Assembly (NCBI GenBank): GCA_030428695.1
Contig: JAUIEM010000079.1
Span: 1-28,196, forward strand
Source of the DNA: a bacterium
GTDB taxonomy: Bacteria; Planctomycetota; J058; JAJDCP01
Direction: 5' to 3'
Length of the DNA: 28,196 nt
The position numbers and the translations under genes are program-made. The notes under the pieces are model-generated. The model made no database searches. It had not been told where the DNA came from and saw only the letters and a list, made by a program, of their open reading frames with translations. This document shows positions 770 to 28,196 of the stretch, piece by piece. The stretch's first letter is position 1, and the number at the start of each line of letters is the position of its first letter.

Positions 770-3700
770 ATGGCGAAGAAGAAGAAGGCGAAGACGCCGG
801 CCGCCGGCCCCCCCGCGGGAGCCCTCGGCGAGCAGCTGCTCGAGGCGGCCGCGCGCTTCAAGCCGGACAGCCAGCCCCTCGGCGGGCTGCTCGCCGAGCT
901 CGCGGACGACGTGCGCAAGGTCGCCGAGGAGCCGCTGACCATCCTGCCGGTCGCCCACCACTCGGCGGCCTGCGCCCTGCACACCCTGCGCCGGCTGCGG
1001 GAGCAGGCGCCGCGGGTCATCTTCATCGAGATCTGCGAGGACCTCGCCGCCTCGATCGCCGAGCTCAAGGACTGCAAGCTGCCGGTCGCCCTGCAGGCCT
1101 TCGCCAGCGCGACCGAGGCCTTCCCGGCCGGCTGGACCCCGCTCAGCGTGGTCGCCCCGCTCAGCGAGTTCTCCGCCGAGTACCAGGCGATCGCCTTCGC
1201 CCTCGCCCACAAGGACACCGACGTCGTGTTCGTCGACCGCAGCGTCGACCACGTCTTCCAGTGGCACCGCGACCACGACACCAACCCGATGCCGGAGCCG
1301 GAGGAAGAGGACGCCGACGAGGAAGAGCAGCTGCACAGCACGGCCGTCGGCATCGAGGTCGGCTCGATCGTGCCGAGCTTCGGCGCCTTCCGCGAGGCGC
1401 TGCTCGAGAACGCCCGGGTGCGCCACTTCTCCGAGTGGTGGGACCTGTACGTCGAGCAGGCCACCCTCGGCGTGGACTTCGACGCCTGGCGCGCGACGAT
1501 GGTGTTCATCGGCAGCCTGTTCCGCAAGGTCGGCACCGAGGCCGCCCGGCTGGAAGAGCTGCGGATGCGCGAGCGCTACATGTGGACGCGCATCAAGACC
1601 TGGCTCCGCGAGCACGAGGTCGCGCCCGCGGACGCCCTCTACATCTGCGGCGCTTCCCACGCCGCGGCGGATGTTCCGGAGTGGGGAACCGCCGCGCTCG
1701 GCACCCCCGAGGACCCGCTCTGGGAGGTTCCGCCGCGCTCGGAGACCGACTGGCTGTACGGCTTCATCCCCTCGAGCTACGCCGCGATCGAGCACCAGTT
1801 CGCCCATCCGCGGGGCACCCTGGCCCTGGCGGAGACGACCTGGAAGAAAGCCTGCGGCGACAACAAGCTCAAGCCCTTCACCCTGAGCGCGCGCACCAAG
1901 CAGAGCAAGGCGCGCAAGCCGAAGAAGCCCGGGCCCCAGGGCAAGGCGACCGGCCTGCTCGGGCTGATGACCGACAGCCCCTCCCACGGCGGCCGCGACG
2001 CCCAGCAGCTGGTCGGATGGTGCACCGACATCGTCGGCCTCGCCCGCAAGAACCGCTACCTCGCGAGCACCGCCGACGCGATCGCGATCTACGAGACCTC
2101 GGTGCTGCTCGCCGGCCTGCGGGGCCGCCCGCACCCCTCCCCCTACGACTTCGTCGACGCCGCGATCACCTGCCTCGAGAAGACCGAGCCGCCGGGCCGC
2201 CGCGACGTGCGCCAGCTGTGCGGGATCCTGCTCGGCGGCGACCGCATCGGCCAGGTCGGCTACAGCTCGCTGCCGCCCTTGGTGCGCGACATCTACGACC
2301 GCCTCGAGCCGGCGGGCGTCAAGCCGAAGAAGACGACGATCACCCGCTGCCTGATCGACTTCAAGAGCCCGGAGGGCGCGGCCCTCAAGCCCTGCTCGGA
2401 GCTGCTCTGGCGGCTGGTCTACCTGCTGCCCCGGGCGGGCCTGGCGCGGCCGATCATGGGCGAGAAGAAGCTCGGCCAGGAGCCGATGCAGGAGAGCTGG
2501 GACATCAAGCTCGGCGGCTACGAGCAGCGCGCGGCCATCCAGCTCGCCTACGAGGGCGTGACCGTCGAGCAGGTGCTCGAGCAGCGGCTGAAGAAGCAGG
2601 CCCTGAAGAGCGCCGCGAAGACCACCGAGGTGCTCGCCCTGGCCGAGGACAGCATCCTCTATCTGTCCAGCCCCCGCCTGACCGAAGAGCTCGGCGAGCG
2701 CGCCGTCTACCTGCTCGGCCACACGGTCGGCGCCGACGAAGCCGAGGAGGTCTTCCGCCGCGTGCGGCGCCTCGTCCACTACTACCGCGCGACGCCGGGC
2801 GGCCTGCCCCACTGGCTGAAGGACTTCGTCGCGATCGGCTACCGCCACTACGCGACCCTGCTCCCCGAGGCCTTCGGCGACCAGGGCACGACGCCCCAGG
2901 CCGTCGCCGGCATGCTCGGCTTCCTGTTCACCCTCGAGAGCCTGGCGCTCGCCCTCGGCTGCTCCCGCAGCCAGGTCTCCATCGCCCTGCAGCAGGCGGC
3001 GCGGGAGGCCGAGGATCCGCCCAAGCTCGGGCTGTTGTGGGCGGCGGAGTTCCTCCTGCAGATCCGCGACGAGGCCTCGCTGCGCGAGGAGTTCCAGCAG
3101 ATCTTCGGCCACCCCCTCAGCCTGCGCGCCTTCCCCGCCTACCTCGGCGGCTTCGTCCTCGCCCTCGGCTTCACGCCGCTGGTCGCGGGGCTCGCCGTCG
3201 AGCTGCTCGGCATGGCCTTCGCCGAGCTGCCGGACAAGGTGCTGCTGCCCTGGCTGCCGGGCCTGCTGAGCAGCCTGTCCGAGTTCTCCGCCGAGGTGCT
3301 GCCGAGCCTGTTCAAGGAGGCCTTCGCCAGCCAGCCCCGCAACCTCGCCGCCCTCGACACCTGGACGCCCCCCTGGGAGCGCGCGCTCCCAGCTTCCTCA
3401 CCGGCCTCCACGGCCGGGGCCGTCCTCGCCCCCGAGGAGGCCGCCGCCCGCGCCCTGCTCGACGACCATCGCGCGGCCTGCGAAGCCCACGCCGGCCGGC
3501 TCGGCCTGGCACTGGACTGGCGGGCGCCCGCACCATCGGGCGGAGCTCCCGCGTTGGAACCCGGGGAAGCGGCGGCCCAGGAGCTGCTGTTCGCCTTCCG
3601 TGGGGCGGCGCTCGCCCACGCGGGGCGGCGCGGGCTGACCGGAGAGTGGACCCTGGCGGGGGCGGGAGCTGCCGAGGGAGCTCCGGCGGATGCGTCCGCA

Positions 3701-3805
3701 GCGGCGGCCCGGGAGCTGCTCGCGGCGTATCCGGCGGCGTTGGAGGCGCGGGCGGGGGCGGTGGGGGTAGAGGAGAACAAGAAGAAGACGGAAGACCTGA
3801 GCTGA
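770..3805 (+). CDS. DUF5682 family protein (TraB/EreA-like), with C-terminal triple repeat
   Basis: The protein has 1011 residues. The start at 770 has a GAGGA ribosome-binding site six bases upstream and opens with a lysine-rich MAKKKKAK; upstream codons in this frame overlap the MoxR gene and are not used. Residues 58-65 (ILPVAHHS) and 83-90 (VIFIEICE) match the start of the DUF5682 domain, and residues 265-298 carry a MRERYM motif and YICGASHA; together they resemble the TraB/EreA/ChaN-like fold with conserved His and Glu residues. A strongly acidic insert lies at 175-187. The middle (about 330-870) is helical and leucine/alanine rich. Residues about 886-1005 form three related units of roughly 40 residues. 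DUF5682 genes are commonly found with MoxR ATPases, vWA and SWIM proteins; enzymatic activity has not been shown to my knowledge. The domain call is strong and the function unknown. Confidence 0.85.
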   Translation: MAKKKKAKTPAAGPPAGALGEQLLEAAARFKPDSQPLGGLLAELADDVRKVAEEPLTILPVAHHSAACALHTLRRLREQAPRVIFIEICEDLAASIAELKDCKLPVALQAFASATEAFPAGWTPLSVVAPLSEFSAEYQAIAFALAHKDTDVVFVDRSVDHVFQWHRDHDTNPMPEPEEEDADEEEQLHSTAVGIEVGSIVPSFGAFREALLENARVRHFSEWWDLYVEQATLGVDFDAWRATMVFIGSLFRKVGTEAARLEELRMRERYMWTRIKTWLREHEVAPADALYICGASHAAADVPEWGTAALGTPEDPLWEVPPRSETDWLYGFIPSSYAAIEHQFAHPRGTLALAETTWKKACGDNKLKPFTLSARTKQSKARKPKKPGPQGKATGLLGLMTDSPSHGGRDAQQLVGWCTDIVGLARKNRYLASTADAIAIYETSVLLAGLRGRPHPSPYDFVDAAITCLEKTEPPGRRDVRQLCGILLGGDRIGQVGYSSLPPLVRDIYDRLEPAGVKPKKTTITRCLIDFKSPEGAALKPCSELLWRLVYLLPRAGLARPIMGEKKLGQEPMQESWDIKLGGYEQRAAIQLAYEGVTVEQVLEQRLKKQALKSAAKTTEVLALAEDSILYLSSPRLTEELGERAVYLLGHTVGADEAEEVFRRVRRLVHYYRATPGGLPHWLKDFVAIGYRHYATLLPEAFGDQGTTPQAVAGMLGFLFTLESLALALGCSRSQVSIALQQAAREAEDPPKLGLLWAAEFLLQIRDEASLREEFQQIFGHPLSLRAFPAYLGGFVLALGFTPLVAGLAVELLGMAFAELPDKVLLPWLPGLLSSLSEFSAEVLPSLFKEAFASQPRNLAALDTWTPPWERALPASSPASTAGAVLAPEEAAARALLDDHRAACEAHAGRLGLALDWRAPAPSGGAPALEPGEAAAQELLFAFRGAALAHAGRRGLTGEWTLAGAGAAEGAPADASAAAARELLAAYPAALEARAGAVGVEENKKKTEDLS

Positions 3806-14457: not shown

Positions 14458-14487
14458 GAGGCCGCCCTCACCGGGCGGCCTCTTCGC
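14458..14487 (+). terminator. Terminator hairpin of the pentapeptide gene
   Basis: A perfect 10-bp stem (GAGGCCGCCC/GGGCGGCCTC) with loop TCACC begins 22 bases after the stop codon and is followed by TTCGC. The U-tract is short, but stem strength and position favour an intrinsic, possibly bidirectional, terminator; the convergent YkgJ gene ends 17 bases further on. Confidence 0.75.
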
Positions 14488-17596: not shown

Positions 17597-17744
17597 CTGT
17601 CGTGTCCCACCCTGACGGCGCTGCGGGTTCGGCTCGATCGGTAGGCTTCCCAAAACAGAATTTCTATACTGACCTCCGCACAGGTTTCTTTCCGTGGCTC
17701 GAAGAGACACGGAGCTCGAATCGAATAGACTACTGACGGACACT

Positions 17745-17916
17745 TGACCTCAGCTCAGCATGAGTTCTGTCCCGGTCCGACGGGCGGGGGTAAACCCCGC
17801 CCCTACATGGTCATCGAGCAGACGTAGAACAGACATGTAGGGGAGGGGTTCACCCCCTCCCGTCGTTCGTTCGGGAACCGACCTTGTCTCGCGGAACAGA
17901 ACTTATGCTGAGGTCA
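17745..17916. repeat. Nested inverted-repeat element containing two head-to-head hairpin units
   Basis: This lies in the 458-bp gene-free region 17597-18054. Outer arms are 17745-17773 and 17893-17916 (TGACCTCAGC..ATGAGTTCTGT against its near complement; the left arm has a duplicated TCAGC). Inside are two inverted copies of a 32-base unit, 17778-17809 and 17834-17865, differing at three positions. Each unit is itself a hairpin with an 8-bp stem: GGGCGGGG/CCCCGCCC and GGGAGGGG/CCCCTCCC. There is no ORF or target duplication. The rest of the gap (17597-17744) shows only a small CCGTG/CACGG hairpin and a repeated GCTCGAA. Confidence 0.8.
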
Positions 17917-17917
17917 G

Positions 17918-17983
17918 TAAGGAACCCAAGAAGCCAGGAAAAGAAAGAGGCCCTCTTCTTTTCCTGGCTTCTTGGGTTCCTTA
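17918..17983. repeat. Perfect 28-bp-stem palindrome (possible bidirectional terminator)
   Basis: Arms 17918-17945 and 17956-17983 are exact reverse complements with a 10-base centre that can also pair in part (GAGG/CCTC). One arm begins TAAGGAACCCAAGAAGCC. It directly abuts the nested element and lies 71 bp beyond the stop of the ABC ATPase gene, between convergent transcription units. It would be an extremely stable hairpin in RNA and a cruciform candidate in DNA. Confidence 0.9.
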
Positions 17984-18054
17984 TAGAAATTATCTCTTCA
18001 CTAACGAATAGAACCACACAAACAAGCCAAGACCTGCTCGCTGTAGTCCCCCCG

Positions 18055-22944: not shown

Positions 22945-23274
22945 CTAGTGGTCCGGCTGCAGAGCGGTTGGGCCCGCGCCCTTCGCGACGCTCCCCCGCC
23001 CCTCGCAGCGCAGGCAGCGCCTGCTGCCGGCACAGGGCGGGCAGGCCTCGCCCGCGCGCTGCCCGCTGCCGTCGCAGAAGCTGCACGCGCCGCTTCCGGC
23101 GCACTCCGGGCAGGTCTCCTGGACCGGGTTGCCTCCCGACCAGGGCGGGGCGTTCTCGTCGTACCGCGCGTCATAGCCCGCCCGCGCCCGGCCCTGCGCC
23201 TCGGGGAACAGCGCCGGATCGGGGGACTGGCAGCCGAGGACCGCGGTGAGGACGACGAGGAAGGCGCCCCGCAT
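22945..23274 (-). CDS. Small cysteine-rich lipoprotein with DnaJ-like zinc-finger motifs
   Basis: The protein has 109 residues. Its ATG shares its A with the TGA stop of the SUKH gene (TGATG), so the two are translated together. Residues 1-15 (MRGAFLVVLTAVLGC) form a lipoprotein signal with C15 as the likely lipidated cysteine. Four CxxC pairs follow at C55/C58, C64/C67, C78/C81 and C87/C90, in the CxxCxGSG style of the DnaJ cysteine-rich domain, enough for two zinc sites. There is no J-domain or other part of DnaJ. A metal-binding zinc finger on the periplasmic side of a membrane is unusual; a protein-binding or thiol role is possible but unproven. The final 18 residues are unstructured. Confidence 0.78.
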   Translation of the reverse strand: MRGAFLVVLTAVLGCQSPDPALFPEAQGRARAGYDARYDENAPPWSGGNPVQETCPECAGSGACSFCDGSGQRAGEACPPCAGSRRCLRCEGRGSVAKGAGPTALQPDH

Positions 23275-23846
23275 CACTCCGGCCTCGTCCAGGCTTCGCG
23301 CACGGCGTCGATGCCGGGGTCGATGCTGCGGATATAGTCGAGGTCGGTGTACCAGGGCTTTTCCTCGACGCCCTGCTTCGGATCGCCGTCCTCGTCGTAG
23401 AATTTCGGGAGGATGGTGCACACCAGCTCGAAGAACTTCGCGAAGCTGCTCGCGATCGGGTGCGTGACGAAGCCTTCCCGCCACTGCCAGAACACCACCG
23501 GGCACTCCGCGTTGTCGTCGAGCGCGTCGGTGTCGAGGCAGAAGTAGTTGCCGCGCCCGTCCGGCCGCAGCACGACGAGACCCGTCGGGAAGCCCGAGGT
23601 GTTCGCGCGCTCGAACAGGGTCAGCTCGACGCTGTCGAGGTGGCGCTCGACCGGCGGCACCCCGTAGATGAACTCGCCGGGGATGCGCCCGCCATTGTGG
23701 CGCCGCAGGAACTGGCAGTAGGAATCGGGGAGCCCGACGCCGAGGGCGTTCTCCGCCTCGCCGATCGACGCCTCGGGAGCGGGCGGGTTCAGGGCGAGAG
23801 CCTGCTTCTCGAAGTACTCGAGGGCCTTGAACGCGGCGTCGAACAT
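23274..23846 (-). CDS. SMI1/KNR4 (SUKH) family protein
   Basis: The protein has 190 residues. The ATG at 23846 follows TGGAGGAT; further upstream the frame is Arg/Ser-rich with no domain. Residues about 28-60 carry the SUKH hallmark: IGEAENALGVGLPDSYCQFLRRHNGG, then the FIYGV strand. Later conserved parts include GNYFCLDT and VVFWQWREG. SUKH proteins serve in many bacteria as immunity proteins for secreted toxins, and in yeast in cell-wall regulation. No toxin gene lies in the window next to it, so immunity cannot be claimed. The coupled downstream gene encodes a lipoprotein with zinc-finger motifs, an unusual partner. The protein has no signal peptide and should act in the cytoplasm. The domain assignment is fairly secure. 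Confidence 0.85.
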   Translation of the reverse strand: MFDAAFKALEYFEKQALALNPPAPEASIGEAENALGVGLPDSYCQFLRRHNGGRIPGEFIYGVPPVERHLDSVELTLFERANTSGFPTGLVVLRPDGRGNYFCLDTDALDDNAECPVVFWQWREGFVTHPIASSFAKFFELVCTILPKFYDEDGDPKQGVEEKPWYTDLDYIRSIDPGIDAVREAWTRPE

Positions 23847-24026
23847 CGGGATCCTCCAGAGACGCGGAAGACGGACGCCGCCGCTCCCGGTGCGTCCGCA
23901 CTTTGCCCGACCTGCCACGCCGGCGCAAGCTTTTCCGTCCGCTCCCCGGCTGAGGGCCCGGAAAGAAGTCGACGAGGCCTCGTCGAGGCATTGCGCGGCG
24001 TCGAACGGCGCGCTGCACAGCCGTGA

Positions 24027-24116
24027 CATTTTGACGCGTTGCGTCGCAAGGGCGGGTCTGGCCGAGACGATGCAGGCGCCTCGACAGCGCCAATGGCACG
24101 AAAGGCTGTCAAAATG
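24027..24116. promoter_or_regulatory. Possible upstream activator dyads for the sigma-54 promoter
   Basis: CATTTTGAC (24027-24035) and its exact complement GTCAAAATG (24108-24116) form a spaced inverted repeat. Within the left part is GACGC-GTT-GCGTC (24033-24045). They lie about 115-205 bp upstream of the sigma-54-type promoter at 24231, the usual distance for enhancer-binding proteins. The role is inferred from position. Confidence 0.4.
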
Positions 24117-24230
24117 ACCAGACCCTCGCCGGGCCCTGGGCGCATCAGGGAACGATTCCTGCACACCGAACACCTTGTACGCCAAGAACTTGGACCGACC
24201 CCACAAGAGAGGGCGTCGCGCAGAGCGCTT

Positions 24231-24248
24231 TTGGCACGGGTCTTGCTT
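24231..24248 (+). promoter_or_regulatory. Consensus sigma-54 (-24/-12) promoter
   Basis: TTGGCACGGGTCTTGCTT matches YTGGCACGRNNNTTGCW at every specified position, with GG and GC ten bases apart. It faces away from the SUKH gene and towards the 3' end of the convergent glycosyltransferase gene. No protein-coding gene on the plus strand follows, so the expected product is an RNA. Confidence 0.65.
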
Positions 24249-24257
24249 TCACTTCTG

Positions 24258-24380
24258 GCGTACCATCCGGGTCCAGATTCACCAGGCGACCCACACACCT
24301 GCTCCGAACTTCCCTCAGCCTCACCGCTGCGAGGTGGCGAGGCTCCAACCGAGCCAAGGCCGGGTCCCCGACCCGGCCTC
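24258..24380 (+). ncRNA. Candidate sigma-54-dependent small RNA
   Basis: A start about 12 bases after the GC of the sigma-54 promoter and an end at the first terminator-like hairpin would give an RNA of about 120 bases. It contains an internal stem (AGCCTC/GAGGCT, 24317-24342) and C-rich unpaired stretches such as CCATCC and TTCACC that could pair with ribosome-binding sites. The overlapping 155-codon ORF has neither a ribosome-binding site nor recognisable protein features. The existence of the RNA is inferred from promoter and hairpins only. Confidence 0.35.
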
Positions 24381-24418
24381 ACGCATTTGTTGGCGGCTCA
24401 GCCCGGTCGGTGACCGGG
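24357..24418. terminator. Two consecutive terminator-like hairpins
   Basis: The first is a perfect 10-bp stem AGGCCGGGTC/GACCCGGCCT (24357-24379) with loop CCC. The second is a 7-bp stem CCCGGTC/GACCGGG (24402-24418) with loop GGT, followed by ATTTC. Neither has a full U-tract. They could end the candidate small RNA on the plus strand and the glycosyltransferase transcript on the minus strand. The rest of gene-free 23847-24593 shows nothing else I can support. Confidence 0.5.
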
Positions 24419-24593
24419 ATTTCGTCGCGAGGGCCCGGAGACCCCTTGCGATCGGGCGCTTCGAGCAGCGGAGCCGTTTCATGGCTCGCACACCGTCCAC
24501 AGGTGAGCAGCGCAGAAGGCTCGAAGTGCCCGAGATCTGCGGCATCCGGGTCCGCAGCAGGAATCCCGGTGTAGCAGACGGGATCCATCGGGC

Positions 24594-25832
24594 TCAGAGC
24601 TCGATCGGCGCGCTCGCCTCCTTGCCGAGCAGGCGGGAGTAGGCGCGCACCACCGCGCGCACCATGCTGTCGAGGCGGTGGGCGCTCGCGACGTGCTCGC
24701 GGGCGCGGCTGCCGAGCTCGACCCGCCGCTCGTGCTCCTTCAGCAGGCCGGCGAGAGCCTCCTTGAGCGAGGCGGGCTCGCGGTCGGGCAGCAGGGTGCC
24801 GAGGCTCTCCTCCTTCAGGATCGTGTAGCCGCCGCCGATCTCGGTGACGACCACCGCGATCCCGTGGGCCATCGCCTCCAGGATCTCGCGCTCCCCGCCC
24901 GCACACTCCGCCGGGCAGACGTAGACCTCGACGACGTCGAAGGGCTCCATCGCCGGCGGATACTCCGGCGTGAAGGTGATGGTCTCGAGCAGCCCGAGCT
25001 CCTTGACCAGGTGCCCGAGCTCGGTGCGCAGCGGCCCCTTCCCGATCAACAGGCCGTGGAAGGCGACGCCGTCGTCCGCCAGCAGCTTGAAGGCCCGCAG
25101 CAGCGACGGCAGCCCGCACTCCTCGCGCAGGGGCCCCTTGTAGGCGATCACGGGCAGATGGCTCGCCGAGGGCTCGGGGGTCGGCTCCGGGCTCTCGAGG
25201 TAGCGACTGCCGATCTGCCAGGGGGTGCGCTGCTCGCGCTCGAGGAGCGTGTCGGCTCCGGTCAGGGGCAAGCTCTGGTGGGTGAGCTCGATCAGCTCGT
25301 CGTAGGGGCTCGGGCCCTTGCTGCGGCGCTCCCGGCGGGTCCCCTTCTCCGGGACGCTGACGCCGAGGGGCAGCAGCTGGACGCGGTCCTTGGCGACGCC
25401 GTGGTTGTTGACCAGGTCGACCCGCACCGACTCGCCCGTGACCAGGAACAGGTCGACCCCACGCGCGCGGCTGAGCGGCGCGTTGCGGACCTGGCTGACG
25501 ACCAGCTTGCAGCCGAGCAGCCAGGAGAGCACCCCCGCCTGGACCAGCAGCCGGGTGTCGAACAGGTGCAACACGTCGGGCTGGAAGCCGCTGTCCTGGA
25601 TGCGGTAGGCCGCCTGCCAGGCGCTGAGCCGCCCCCCGAGCAGGCCGCGCAGCGACTGCCAGAGGCAGAGGGGCTCGAGGGCCGGCGGCACGATCCCCCC
25701 GTCGAGCAGCAGACGCACGGGGGCGCCCCAGCTGTGCAGGGCCGCGGCGAGGTCGAGCATGATGCCGGTCGCGCCCCAGGGAGCAGCCTCCTCGGCGACG
25801 AACAGCACGCGCGGCTTGGACTCTTCCGCCAC
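24594..25832 (-). CDS. GT4-type glycosyltransferase
   Basis: The protein has 412 residues from a GTG at 25832, two bases after the kinase stop (TGA-GC-GTG), with a G-rich sequence as weak ribosome-binding site; translational coupling is likely. Two Rossmann-like halves fit the GT-B fold. The N-terminal half opens RVLFVAEEAAPWGATGIMLD, and DVLHLFDTRLL follows later. The C-terminal half has IAYKGPLREECGLPSLLRAF, HGLLIGKGPLRTELG, and the donor-binding block ECAGGEREILEAMAHGIAVV followed by TEIGGG (about 305-330), which holds the acidic pair typical of GT4 enzymes. It would transfer a sugar from a nucleotide-sugar donor to an unknown acceptor at the cytoplasmic face. A glutamate/serine/proline-rich insert (about 170-220) separates the halves. 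Being coupled to a Ser/Thr kinase gene suggests phospho-control of surface glycan synthesis, which is inferred. Confidence 0.87.
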   Translation of the reverse strand: MAEESKPRVLFVAEEAAPWGATGIMLDLAAALHSWGAPVRLLLDGGIVPPALEPLCLWQSLRGLLGGRLSAWQAAYRIQDSGFQPDVLHLFDTRLLVQAGVLSWLLGCKLVVSQVRNAPLSRARGVDLFLVTGESVRVDLVNNHGVAKDRVQLLPLGVSVPEKGTRRERRSKGPSPYDELIELTHQSLPLTGADTLLEREQRTPWQIGSRYLESPEPTPEPSASHLPVIAYKGPLREECGLPSLLRAFKLLADDGVAFHGLLIGKGPLRTELGHLVKELGLLETITFTPEYPPAMEPFDVVEVYVCPAECAGGEREILEAMAHGIAVVVTEIGGGYTILKEESLGTLLPDREPASLKEALAGLLKEHERRVELGSRAREHVASAHRLDSMVRAVVRAYSRLLGKEASAPIEL

Positions 25833-25834
25833 GC

Positions 25835-28196
25835 TCAGCCCCCGTCCCCGTCCGCATCGGGACGGGTGATCGCCTTGTTGTAGAAGCGGATGCTGGTCTT
25901 GTAGGCCTCCTTTGCCTGCCCGTATTCCTTGCGGATCAGGAAGCTGTCGCCGTCGAGCAGGCTCTTGCGCGCCTTCTCCGCCGCGGCGGGCACCGGTCCC
26001 CCCCACTGGGCGAGGAAAGTGTTCCAGCGCCCGGCGGCGTAGCCGACGTCGTTGCGCAGCGAGCGCAGGTCGGGAGGGGCCGCGTGGAGGGCCTGCTGGG
26101 AGATCTCCGGCAGGTCGAGGGTGCCGTCGCCGAACAGCTCCACCCCGCCGTTCCCCCGGTTCCCTCCCGACGGATCCGGTGTCGGCTCGGGATCGCGCAG
26201 GCCGTTGATCACGAAGCCGATCAGCGCGACCGCGATCAGGGCGTAGGCGACGATCAGGGGCGGAGAGAGGAAAGGCGAGCCTTCGGCCGCGGGAGCCGCG
26301 AAGGGCGGCCCGGGCCGGGGCAGCTCGGGGGGCGCCGGCGCGGGCACCTCGCCGCTTCCGACCGTGCGGCGCGGGCGCAGGCCGGTACCTCCCTGGTCGA
26401 AGGTCGAGCCGGTCAGGGGCGCGATCGCCTCGGCGAGCTCCTTGCCGGTCTGGAAGCGATGGATCGGGTCCTTCTGCAGGAGCCGGGTCACGATCTGCCC
26501 CATCGCCGACGACAGACCCGGACGGGACACCGAGATGTTCGGCGCCGGGTGCATCAGATGCTGTTCCATCAGGTTGGCCGACGACGGACCCGGGAAGACC
26601 TGCGCGCCGGTCAGCATCATGTACAGCGTGCAACCGAGCGAGTAGAGGTCGGAGCGGTGGTCGGTCTTGCGGCTGTCCCGCCACTGCTCGGGGCTCATCG
26701 TCGCCGGGGTTCCCATCACGGTGCCGGGCACCGTGAACTCGCCGTCCCCCTCGTTCGCCGCCTTGACCAGGCCGAAATCGGCGATCTTCACCCGGCCCTC
26801 CACGGTCAGGAGCAGGTTGTCCGGCTTGATGTCGCGGTGGACGATGCCCTTCTCCGCCGCCGCCCACAGCCCGAGGGCGGTCTGGAACACGATCTCGGCC
26901 GCCGTCTGCTCTTCGAGCCGGCCCTCGGCGGCCATCAGCTCCTTGACCGAGCCCCCGCCGCAGTAGCCCATCGCGATGAAGTACAGCCCCTCGGCCTCGA
27001 ACATATCGTAGACCGGCACGATCGCCGGGTGGTCGAGCTTGGCCAGCGACTGCGCCTCACGCTCGAAGCGCTCGATCAGCTCGCGGTCGTTGGACAGGGC
27101 CGGCGGCAGCACCTTGACCGCGACCGTGCGTTTGAGCTTGAGCTGGCGGGCCCGGAAGACCGCGCCCATCGCGCCCTCGCCGAGCAGATCCTGGATCTTG
27201 TAGCCCGCGAGGGTGCGGCCGAGGAAGCTCTGGAAGGTCGAGCCGTGCCGGCTGAAGGGGACGCCGCCTTGGGAGTGCGGGCTGTCGACCGCGGTCTCCG
27301 CCGCGAGCAGCTCGCGCTGGCTCTCGGACAGCTCCCGGGCGTGGACCGCCGGCGCGGGGCGGGCTCCTGCCGATGGGGCTGCCAGCGGCGCCGGAGCAGG
27401 CGCCGGAGCCGGCGCCGGACGCGGCGCCGCGACGGCCTGCGGAGGCTGCGGACCCCGCGGATGCGCCCCCGCCGCGTGGGGGTGCGCCCCCGCGGGCGGC
27501 GCGGCGTGGGGCTGCGCCGCGGGCGGCGCGTGGGCATAGGCGGGCTGGCGCGCCCCGGGCGGCGGTACGGAGCCCGGGGGTTGACCGCGCGCCGGCTGCA
27601 CAGCGGGCCGCGGAGGCCGGCCCTGCGGCGCGCGCCCGGACGCCGGCGGACGGCCGCTCGCGGGCCGCGCCTGGCCACGGCGGGGAGCCGCGTAGCCAGC
27701 CGGCGGTCGCTGCCGGTACCCCGCCGACGAGCCCGGCGGCGCTCCGGGCGCCGGCGCTCCTCGCGCCGCGGGATGCGCCGAAGCCCCCGCGCCGGCCGGC
27801 GGCCCTCTTCGCGCCGCGGGATGGGCGGAAGCGCCCGCGCCCGGATGGGTCCCCGGCGCCTGGCTGTGCGGCCGGGCGGCTGCCGGCGGCGCCGCCTGTG
27901 GGGGGTAGCCTGCCGGGTACGCGTAGCCCGGCGGCTGCGGACTCCCCTGCTGGTGCGGATGCCCCGCTGGCGGATAGCCCGCCGGCTGCGCATGTCCCGC
28001 CGCAGGCTGCCCTGCCGGGGGCTGCCCCGCCGGGGGCCTCCCCGCCGCAGGCTGCCCCGCCGGGGGCCTCCCCGCCGCGGCGGGCTGCCCCGCCGGCCAC
28101 GCTCCGTGCCCGCGCCCCGGGTGGGACCCTGCCCCGCGCGGTTGCCCCGCGGCCGCCGCGCGTCCGCTCACGGGCGCGGCTGGAGCGTGTCCGCAG
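25835..28196 (-). CDS. Transmembrane Ser/Thr protein kinase with long low-complexity N-terminus (runs off window)
   Basis: The frame is open to the window edge; a GTG at 28171 could be a start, giving 778 residues, but upstream codons keep the same composition, so the gene is probably longer. Residues about 1-270 (counted from that GTG) are Pro/Ala/Gly/Gln/His-rich with internal repeats. The kinase domain covers about 320-590: LLGEGAMGAVFRA glycine loop, VAVK lysine, catalytic HRDIKPDN (about 26820-26845), DFG (26771-26779) and GTPATMSPEQW. It is an RD kinase with all catalytic residues, unlike the HLD/DWG kinase at 5558. A membrane helix (SPPLIVAYALIAVALIGFVI) lies at about 26200-26260, followed by about 120 exported residues ending in a helical AEKARKSLLDGDSF...YGQAKEAYKTSIRFY segment. 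The coupled downstream gene is a glycosyltransferase. Substrates are unknown. Confidence 0.93.
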   Translation of the reverse strand, partial: CGHAPAAPVSGRAAAAGQPRGAGSHPGRGHGAWPAGQPAAAGRPPAGQPAAGRPPAGQPPAGQPAAGHAQPAGYPPAGHPHQQGSPQPPGYAYPAGYPPQAAPPAAARPHSQAPGTHPGAGASAHPAARRGPPAGAGASAHPAARGAPAPGAPPGSSAGYRQRPPAGYAAPRRGQARPASGRPPASGRAPQGRPPRPAVQPARGQPPGSVPPPGARQPAYAHAPPAAQPHAAPPAGAHPHAAGAHPRGPQPPQAVAAPRPAPAPAPAPAPLAAPSAGARPAPAVHARELSESQRELLAAETAVDSPHSQGGVPFSRHGSTFQSFLGRTLAGYKIQDLLGEGAMGAVFRARQLKLKRTVAVKVLPPALSNDRELIERFEREAQSLAKLDHPAIVPVYDMFEAEGLYFIAMGYCGGGSVKELMAAEGRLEEQTAAEIVFQTALGLWAAAEKGIVHRDIKPDNLLLTVEGRVKIADFGLVKAANEGDGEFTVPGTVMGTPATMSPEQWRDSRKTDHRSDLYSLGCTLYMMLTGAQVFPGPSSANLMEQHLMHPAPNISVSRPGLSSAMGQIVTRLLQKDPIHRFQTGKELAEAIAPLTGSTFDQGGTGLRPRRTVGSGEVPAPAPPELPRPGPPFAAPAAEGSPFLSPPLIVAYALIAVALIGFVINGLRDPEPTPDPSGGNRGNGGVELFGDGTLDLPEISQQALHAAPPDLRSLRNDVGYAAGRWNTFLAQWGGPVPAAAEKARKSLLDGDSFLIRKEYGQAKEAYKTSIRFYNKAITRPDADGDGG
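28021..28080. repeat. 30-bp tandem repeat inside the kinase N-terminus
   Basis: Two adjacent 30-base units (28021-28050 and 28051-28080), beginning GCTGCCCCGCCGGGGGCCTC, differ at one position; a partial third unit follows at 28084. They encode repeated Pro-Ala-Gly-Gln/Arg-Pro. The length is a multiple of three, so copy-number change would keep the frame. Confidence 0.85.

Follow-up and report, generated by a model that had tools for sequence, protein, structure and literature searches.

A sigma-54 consensus site in a gene-free spacer and the short non-coding RNA it may drive

The spacer and its consensus site

The window, as we call the whole stretch of 28,196 nucleotides that was analysed, contains a gene-free spacer of 747 bp (23847-24593). 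It lies between two genes of the same strand, and the gene on its right is itself followed by a Ser/Thr kinase gene. The features of the region are as follows.

23274-23846, minus strand: SMI1/KNR4 (SUKH) family gene (PF09346, E 2.8e-19), the left neighbour, reading away from the site
24027-24230, plus strand: stretch for which activator dyads had been proposed; its close-spaced inverted repeats are at chance level
24231-24247, plus strand: match to the sigma-54 -24/-12 promoter consensus, TTGGCACGGGTCTTGCT
24258-24420, plus strand: putative non-coding transcript, its inferred start 12 nt after the -12 GC
24317-24344, plus strand: imperfect hairpin AGCCTC/GAGGCT with an inner stem, from folding
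24357-24379, plus strand: perfect 10-bp stem with loop CCC and no T-tract after it
24402-24418, plus strand: perfect 7-bp stem with a loop of 3, then ATTTCG
24452-24533, no strand assigned: further inverted repeat with 15-nt arms (93%), lying 61-142 nt past the stop codon of the glycosyltransferase gene
24594-25838, minus strand: group 1 / family 4 glycosyltransferase gene, the right neighbour, reading towards the site

The original prediction described the spacer as free of genes, with no coding gene after the promoter on the plus strand, and a codon-usage scan of all six frames of 23847-24593 agreed with this. The best 50-codon window scored -0.15, whereas the 16 window genes, from which the codon table was itself built (the gene at 846-3805 being left out), ranged from 0.15 to 0.74. 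The spacer thus lacks a coding frame, as a regulatory small RNA should. An Rfam search returned nothing reaching gathering scores, and three weak matches (E 0.27 to 0.82) were taken as chance.

The same scan bears on the idea that a short protein is encoded behind the promoter, such as one of 53 codons starting at an ATG near 24481, where GGAG provides a plausible ribosome site. Such a role would fit the planctomycete class described below, in which most sigma-54 sites precede genes. Against it, every 50-codon window in the six frames scored below 0, in a scan that covers the 53-codon frame up to 24593, and the frame itself runs into the opposite gene. We consider this explanation very improbable.

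Sigma-54 promoters, which are used for stress and nutrient responses, follow the consensus YTGGCACG-N4-TTGCW, with GG at -24 and GC at -12. In TTGGCACGGGTCTTGCT the GG occupies 24233-24234 and the GC 24245-24246, so that 24231-24247 has the -24 GG, the -12 GC and the spacing of exactly 10 bases that mark a sigma-54-dependent promoter. It is the sole exact TGGCACN5TTGCW in the window. Dinucleotide shuffling of the window gave a mean of 0.02 matches (2 of 100 shuffles with one match each), and 400 order-2 Markov simulations gave none. Both the full consensus at this position and the claim that a chance match in 28 kb is unlikely are therefore upheld.

The proposed activator dyads upstream of the promoter were not confirmed by the same kind of comparison. 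With gaps of up to 30, the region 24027-24230 contained one inverted repeat with arms of at least 6 (1.3 expected from simulations) and eight with arms of at least 5 (5.7 expected, P 0.19). Imperfect pairs of 11-mers at wider spacing (at most 2 mismatches) were slightly in excess, with seven against 2.9 expected (P 0.08), a figure that in part counts one pair several times through overlap. Since the close-spaced repeats are at chance level, we dropped the dyads as evidence for the promoter.

Hairpins downstream of the site

The segment 24258-24420 was predicted to fold at -70.4 kcal/mol, more stably than shuffled sequence (z -2.7). Within it, 24281-24400 reached z -2.9, which ranks it among the lowest 2% of the 702 windows, and further on 24441-24560 reached z -3.5. 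When the spacer was simulated 300 times with a first-order model, 1.3% of the runs had a 10-bp stem and 1.3% had at least three 7-bp stems. Across the window as a whole, perfect stems were near expectation: those of at least 8 bp numbered 13 (9.9 expected) and those of at least 10 bp numbered 2 (0.9 expected). A terminator scan of 23700-24700 found none on the plus strand and two on the minus strand. The terminator-like hairpins of the original prediction are thus present as 10-bp and 7-bp stems and mildly enriched, but they lack the T-tract that commonly goes with the stem-loop at the 3' end of a small RNA, and our placing of the 3' end of the putative transcript near 24380 or 24420 is a guess. 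The strongest folding of the 702 windows (z to -9) lies elsewhere, at 17597-18054, where a YhhN gene and an ABC-transporter ATPase gene converge. It comprises two long inverted repeats, one of 28 nt and perfect (17918-17945/17956-17983), the other of 32 nt at 91% (17778-17809/17834-17865).

Several of these structures could have a different owner. The glycosyltransferase transcript of the opposite strand is an equally possible source of the hairpins, which would then form its 3' end, and the inverted repeat at 24452-24533 may be the 3' end of that gene. A rival explanation builds on this: the consensus match would be accidental, and the hairpins would represent either the end of the minus-strand glycosyltransferase transcript or ordinary GC-rich spacer. 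Consistent with it, the minus strand folds about equally (-81.3 kcal/mol, z -2.0), and one of the two minus-strand terminator-like sites, at 24136-24120, has a T-rich tail. The window's second perfect 10-bp stem, at 14458-14482, likewise has no T-tract and sits between two convergent genes, from which we infer that such stems may mark transcript ends here. The chance-level dyads fit this explanation as well, whereas the expectation of only 0.02 matches in the window speaks against an accidental site. The comparison with other genomes, given below, adds a point on each side; overall, we judge the explanation unlikely, though deserving of weight.

A second alternative accepts the promoter and dispenses with a free small RNA. 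A longer antisense transcript would read across the spacer and the 3' portion of the glycosyltransferase gene, whose expression it would lower. The gene is indeed on the opposite strand and would be reached 336 nt after the inferred start, and the plus strand has no T-tract terminator before 24594; on the other hand, several GC-rich hairpins intervene between promoter and gene, and hairpin ends of this kind also occur in a sigma-54-associated RNA described below. We regard the antisense transcript as improbable. One result counts against a free small RNA: 24258-24316 showed no base-pairing signal with the starts of 16 window genes, for each of which a fraction of at least 0.16 of the shuffles paired equally well.

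Sigma-54 sites and a small RNA in a class of Planctomycetota

The lineage from which the window comes is thinly sampled. The nearest homologue of its TrmB was 72% identical (P0024), and the homologous TrmB loci among the matches listed were distant ones only. With P0024 as the query, 40 of 392 Planctomycetota genomes matched at E 1e-32 or better, and the best 12 matches, 17 of the 40 in all, came from the class of G133. We therefore used this class (20 genomes, Planctomycetota) as a stand-in, which is not proven kin of the window lineage. Indeed, a quick TrmB tree placed the window lineage outside the class and gave it no settled position in a phylum, so that any inference from the class is indirect. 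The nearest homologue of the glycosyltransferase was 57% identical (P0002), its sequence patterns had no close relative in the genome contigs searched, and it had no match at E 1e-30 among the 392 genomes, nor P0002 at E 1e-22 in the 20 genomes of the class. A DUF5682 protein (window 770-3805) has named close homologues from Myxococcota, Cyanobacteria, Chloroflexi and an 'Alphaproteobacteria' bin; since these names span several phyla, it places the window nowhere, and the protein is perhaps often exchanged between phyla.

The spacer itself had no homologue by blastn in the 20 genomes of the stand-in class (best E 0.005 over 33 bases). A covariance model of 24258-24420, built from the window's own sequence as its single member, gave E of 1 or less in 3 of the 20 genomes, the best match scoring 24 bits (E 0.010). 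We took these matches as generic hairpins.

The class does use the promoter type. We found rpoN in 18 of its 20 genomes and the exact motif TTGGCACGN4TTGCW at 37 sites in 15 of the 20, as against 4 for the reversed control; it was absent from the two genomes that lack rpoN, and also from three that have it. Thirty of the 37 sites, those with loci, were read manually. Twenty-six preceded a plausible gene, meaning a same-strand start within about 300 bases, and four preceded one and the same small RNA. A mechanical count agreed with this reading. The sites lay outside coding-like frames in 25 of 30 cases, compared with 159 of 915 positions (17%) taken as controls from these loci, and a coding-like frame started nearby on the same strand in 24 of 30 (126 of 915 controls, 14%). 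These 30 sites are not independent, because many are orthologous (clpB, ECF sigma). From their N-terminal sequences, we take the genes behind them to encode an ECF sigma factor (10 sites), ClpB (9), Hsp20, a UspA-like protein and others; the name DnaK among them is likewise our reading of an N-terminal sequence. Exact sites stand before presumed clpB in L097, L102, L103, L106, L114, L115, L118, L119 and L124, and also before presumed Hsp20 (L095) and an ECF sigma factor. Together, these sites possibly represent a stress regulon under sigma-54.

The excess over the reversed control argues against an accidental match in the window, but one base points the other way. Immediately before TTGC the window site has C, and all 37 sites of the class have G or A. 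Sites with a pyrimidine here numbered 0 in the class (3 for the control), and 148 against 30 for the control in the 392 genomes of the phylum, where C and T were counted together and 45 of the 148 stem from four genomes. Among 21 sites with C before TTGC (20 hand-picked from the listed sites, plus L186), at least 15 preceded a plausible gene by manual reading, and a few, such as L186, did not. L186, which comes from a genome of the phylum searched, has a sigma-54 consensus site at about 1500, TTGGCACGGCCCTTGCT, in a 68% GC stretch with no clear gene downstream.

The small RNA behind the four sites proved to be class-wide. Its 30-nt core, GGAAGACCGGCCCCCAAGCCGTTTTCTACG, occurs once and exactly in 16 of the 20 genomes (at 1501-1530 of the full-length loci in L129-L144), and in 16 of 16 a sigma-54 site lies upstream, the distance from its GC to the core being 12-14 bases; one of these sites has CTGC in place of TTGC. 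The alignment comprised 15 of the 16 copies (L141, cut by a contig end, was left out), and the RNA has 23 predicted pairs. The 10 pairs of the first hairpin, which has a C-rich loop (CCCCAA), are uninformative because they never vary, but the second hairpin shows compensatory changes at 9 of its 13 pairs. The covariation score was 0.29, whereas shuffles gave 0.08 and slid controls no more than 0.04. Six of the 15 copies end in a hairpin without a long T-tract, and this counts against the antisense transcript considered above.

With stricter filters, the model of this RNA matched 18 of the 392 phylum genomes at E 0.01 or less; 16 were those of the class, and the two outside it were weak (E about 0.001). 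Four loci that were tried gave no Rfam match, and the RNA is apparently undescribed. Eight genomes (L162-L169) contain a second, weaker model match of 40 to 57 bits about 120-180 bases from the first, which we read as a tandem, diverging copy.

We rejected the possibility that the window carries this RNA. An 18-nt part of the core had no match there even with 3 mismatches allowed, the first 14 nt of the core with 2 mismatches matched three times (1.0 expected), and the best score against the covariance model (R1) was 9.5 bits (E 0.43). By these sequence comparisons, any RNA made from the window site is outside both the class family and the Rfam families.

A candidate sigma-54-dependent RNA and its known counterparts

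The results presented above suggest that 24231-24247 is probably a genuine sigma-54 promoter. A promoter with no coding gene behind it is the likelier reading of the site, because the motif is rare by chance and about ninefold more frequent than its reversed control in the stand-in class, and because that class provides a direct precedent for a small RNA driven by sigma-54. Short structured RNAs are thus, by this precedent, among the products of promoters of this kind.

We therefore favour, as the best single reading and with a probability of about one half, a short non-coding transcript dependent on sigma-54. Against it count the failure to find a homologue of the segment in the 20 genomes of the class, the lack of a T-tract, the missing base-pairing signal with window genes and the C before TTGC. 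The consensus site, the lack of coding signal and the hairpins were observed directly, and to these the reading adds sigma-54 binding, transcription, the transcript ends, an activator and a target. In the proposed mechanism, the working promoter would drive an RNA that starts near 24258 and ends in the hairpin region 24357-24420. It would appear only once an enhancer-binding activator, whose gene lies elsewhere, has responded to its signal. Known sigma-54-dependent small RNAs act by base-pairing with target mRNAs, and the RNA proposed here would most likely do the same. The regulated small RNA of the original prediction thus keeps its promoter, rare by chance, and gains a precedent in the class of G133; its close-spaced dyads are at chance level, and its hairpins lack a T-tract.

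The regulatory RNAs of Planctomycetota, and those of deep lineages that have no firm placement, seem to have received little attention, and none of the titles listed in literature searches for Planctomycetes or Planctomycetota together with sigma-54 concerned RNAs of this kind. Sigma-54 sites that precede no gene offer an easy search criterion for RNAs made only under given conditions; indeed, it was the orphan site of the window that led to the class-wide RNA in the class of G133. We tentatively suggest that in these possibly planctomycete bacteria sigma-54 might control small RNAs, both class-wide and lineage-specific (24258-24420 would be an example), besides stress and surface genes.

Two comparisons within this study help to place the candidate. 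It resembles the small RNA of the class of G133 in its near-identical sigma-54 site, its intergenic position, its two hairpins and the missing long T-tract seen in some copies of that RNA, and it differs in that neither the core nor model R1 is matched in the window. With the GC-rich hairpin ends of convergent genes, such as 14458-14482, it shares a perfect GC-rich stem without a T-tract. In contrast to those ends, the spacer lies between two genes of the same strand, so that only the sigma-54 transcript itself could act as the convergent partner.

Finally, regulatory small RNAs that depend on sigma-54 are known elsewhere, namely GlmY (with the activator QseF), CrcZ and CrcY (CbrB) and Qrr1-5 (LuxO). 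The segment of the window differs from these in having no Rfam match, no T-tract terminator on its strand and no target among the starts of 16 window genes. The arrangement is otherwise alike: in each of these systems a sigma-54 promoter is followed by a short structured non-coding segment, and the activator is encoded elsewhere. With GlmY, CrcZ and Qrr already described, the RNA proposed for the window would extend a known type.
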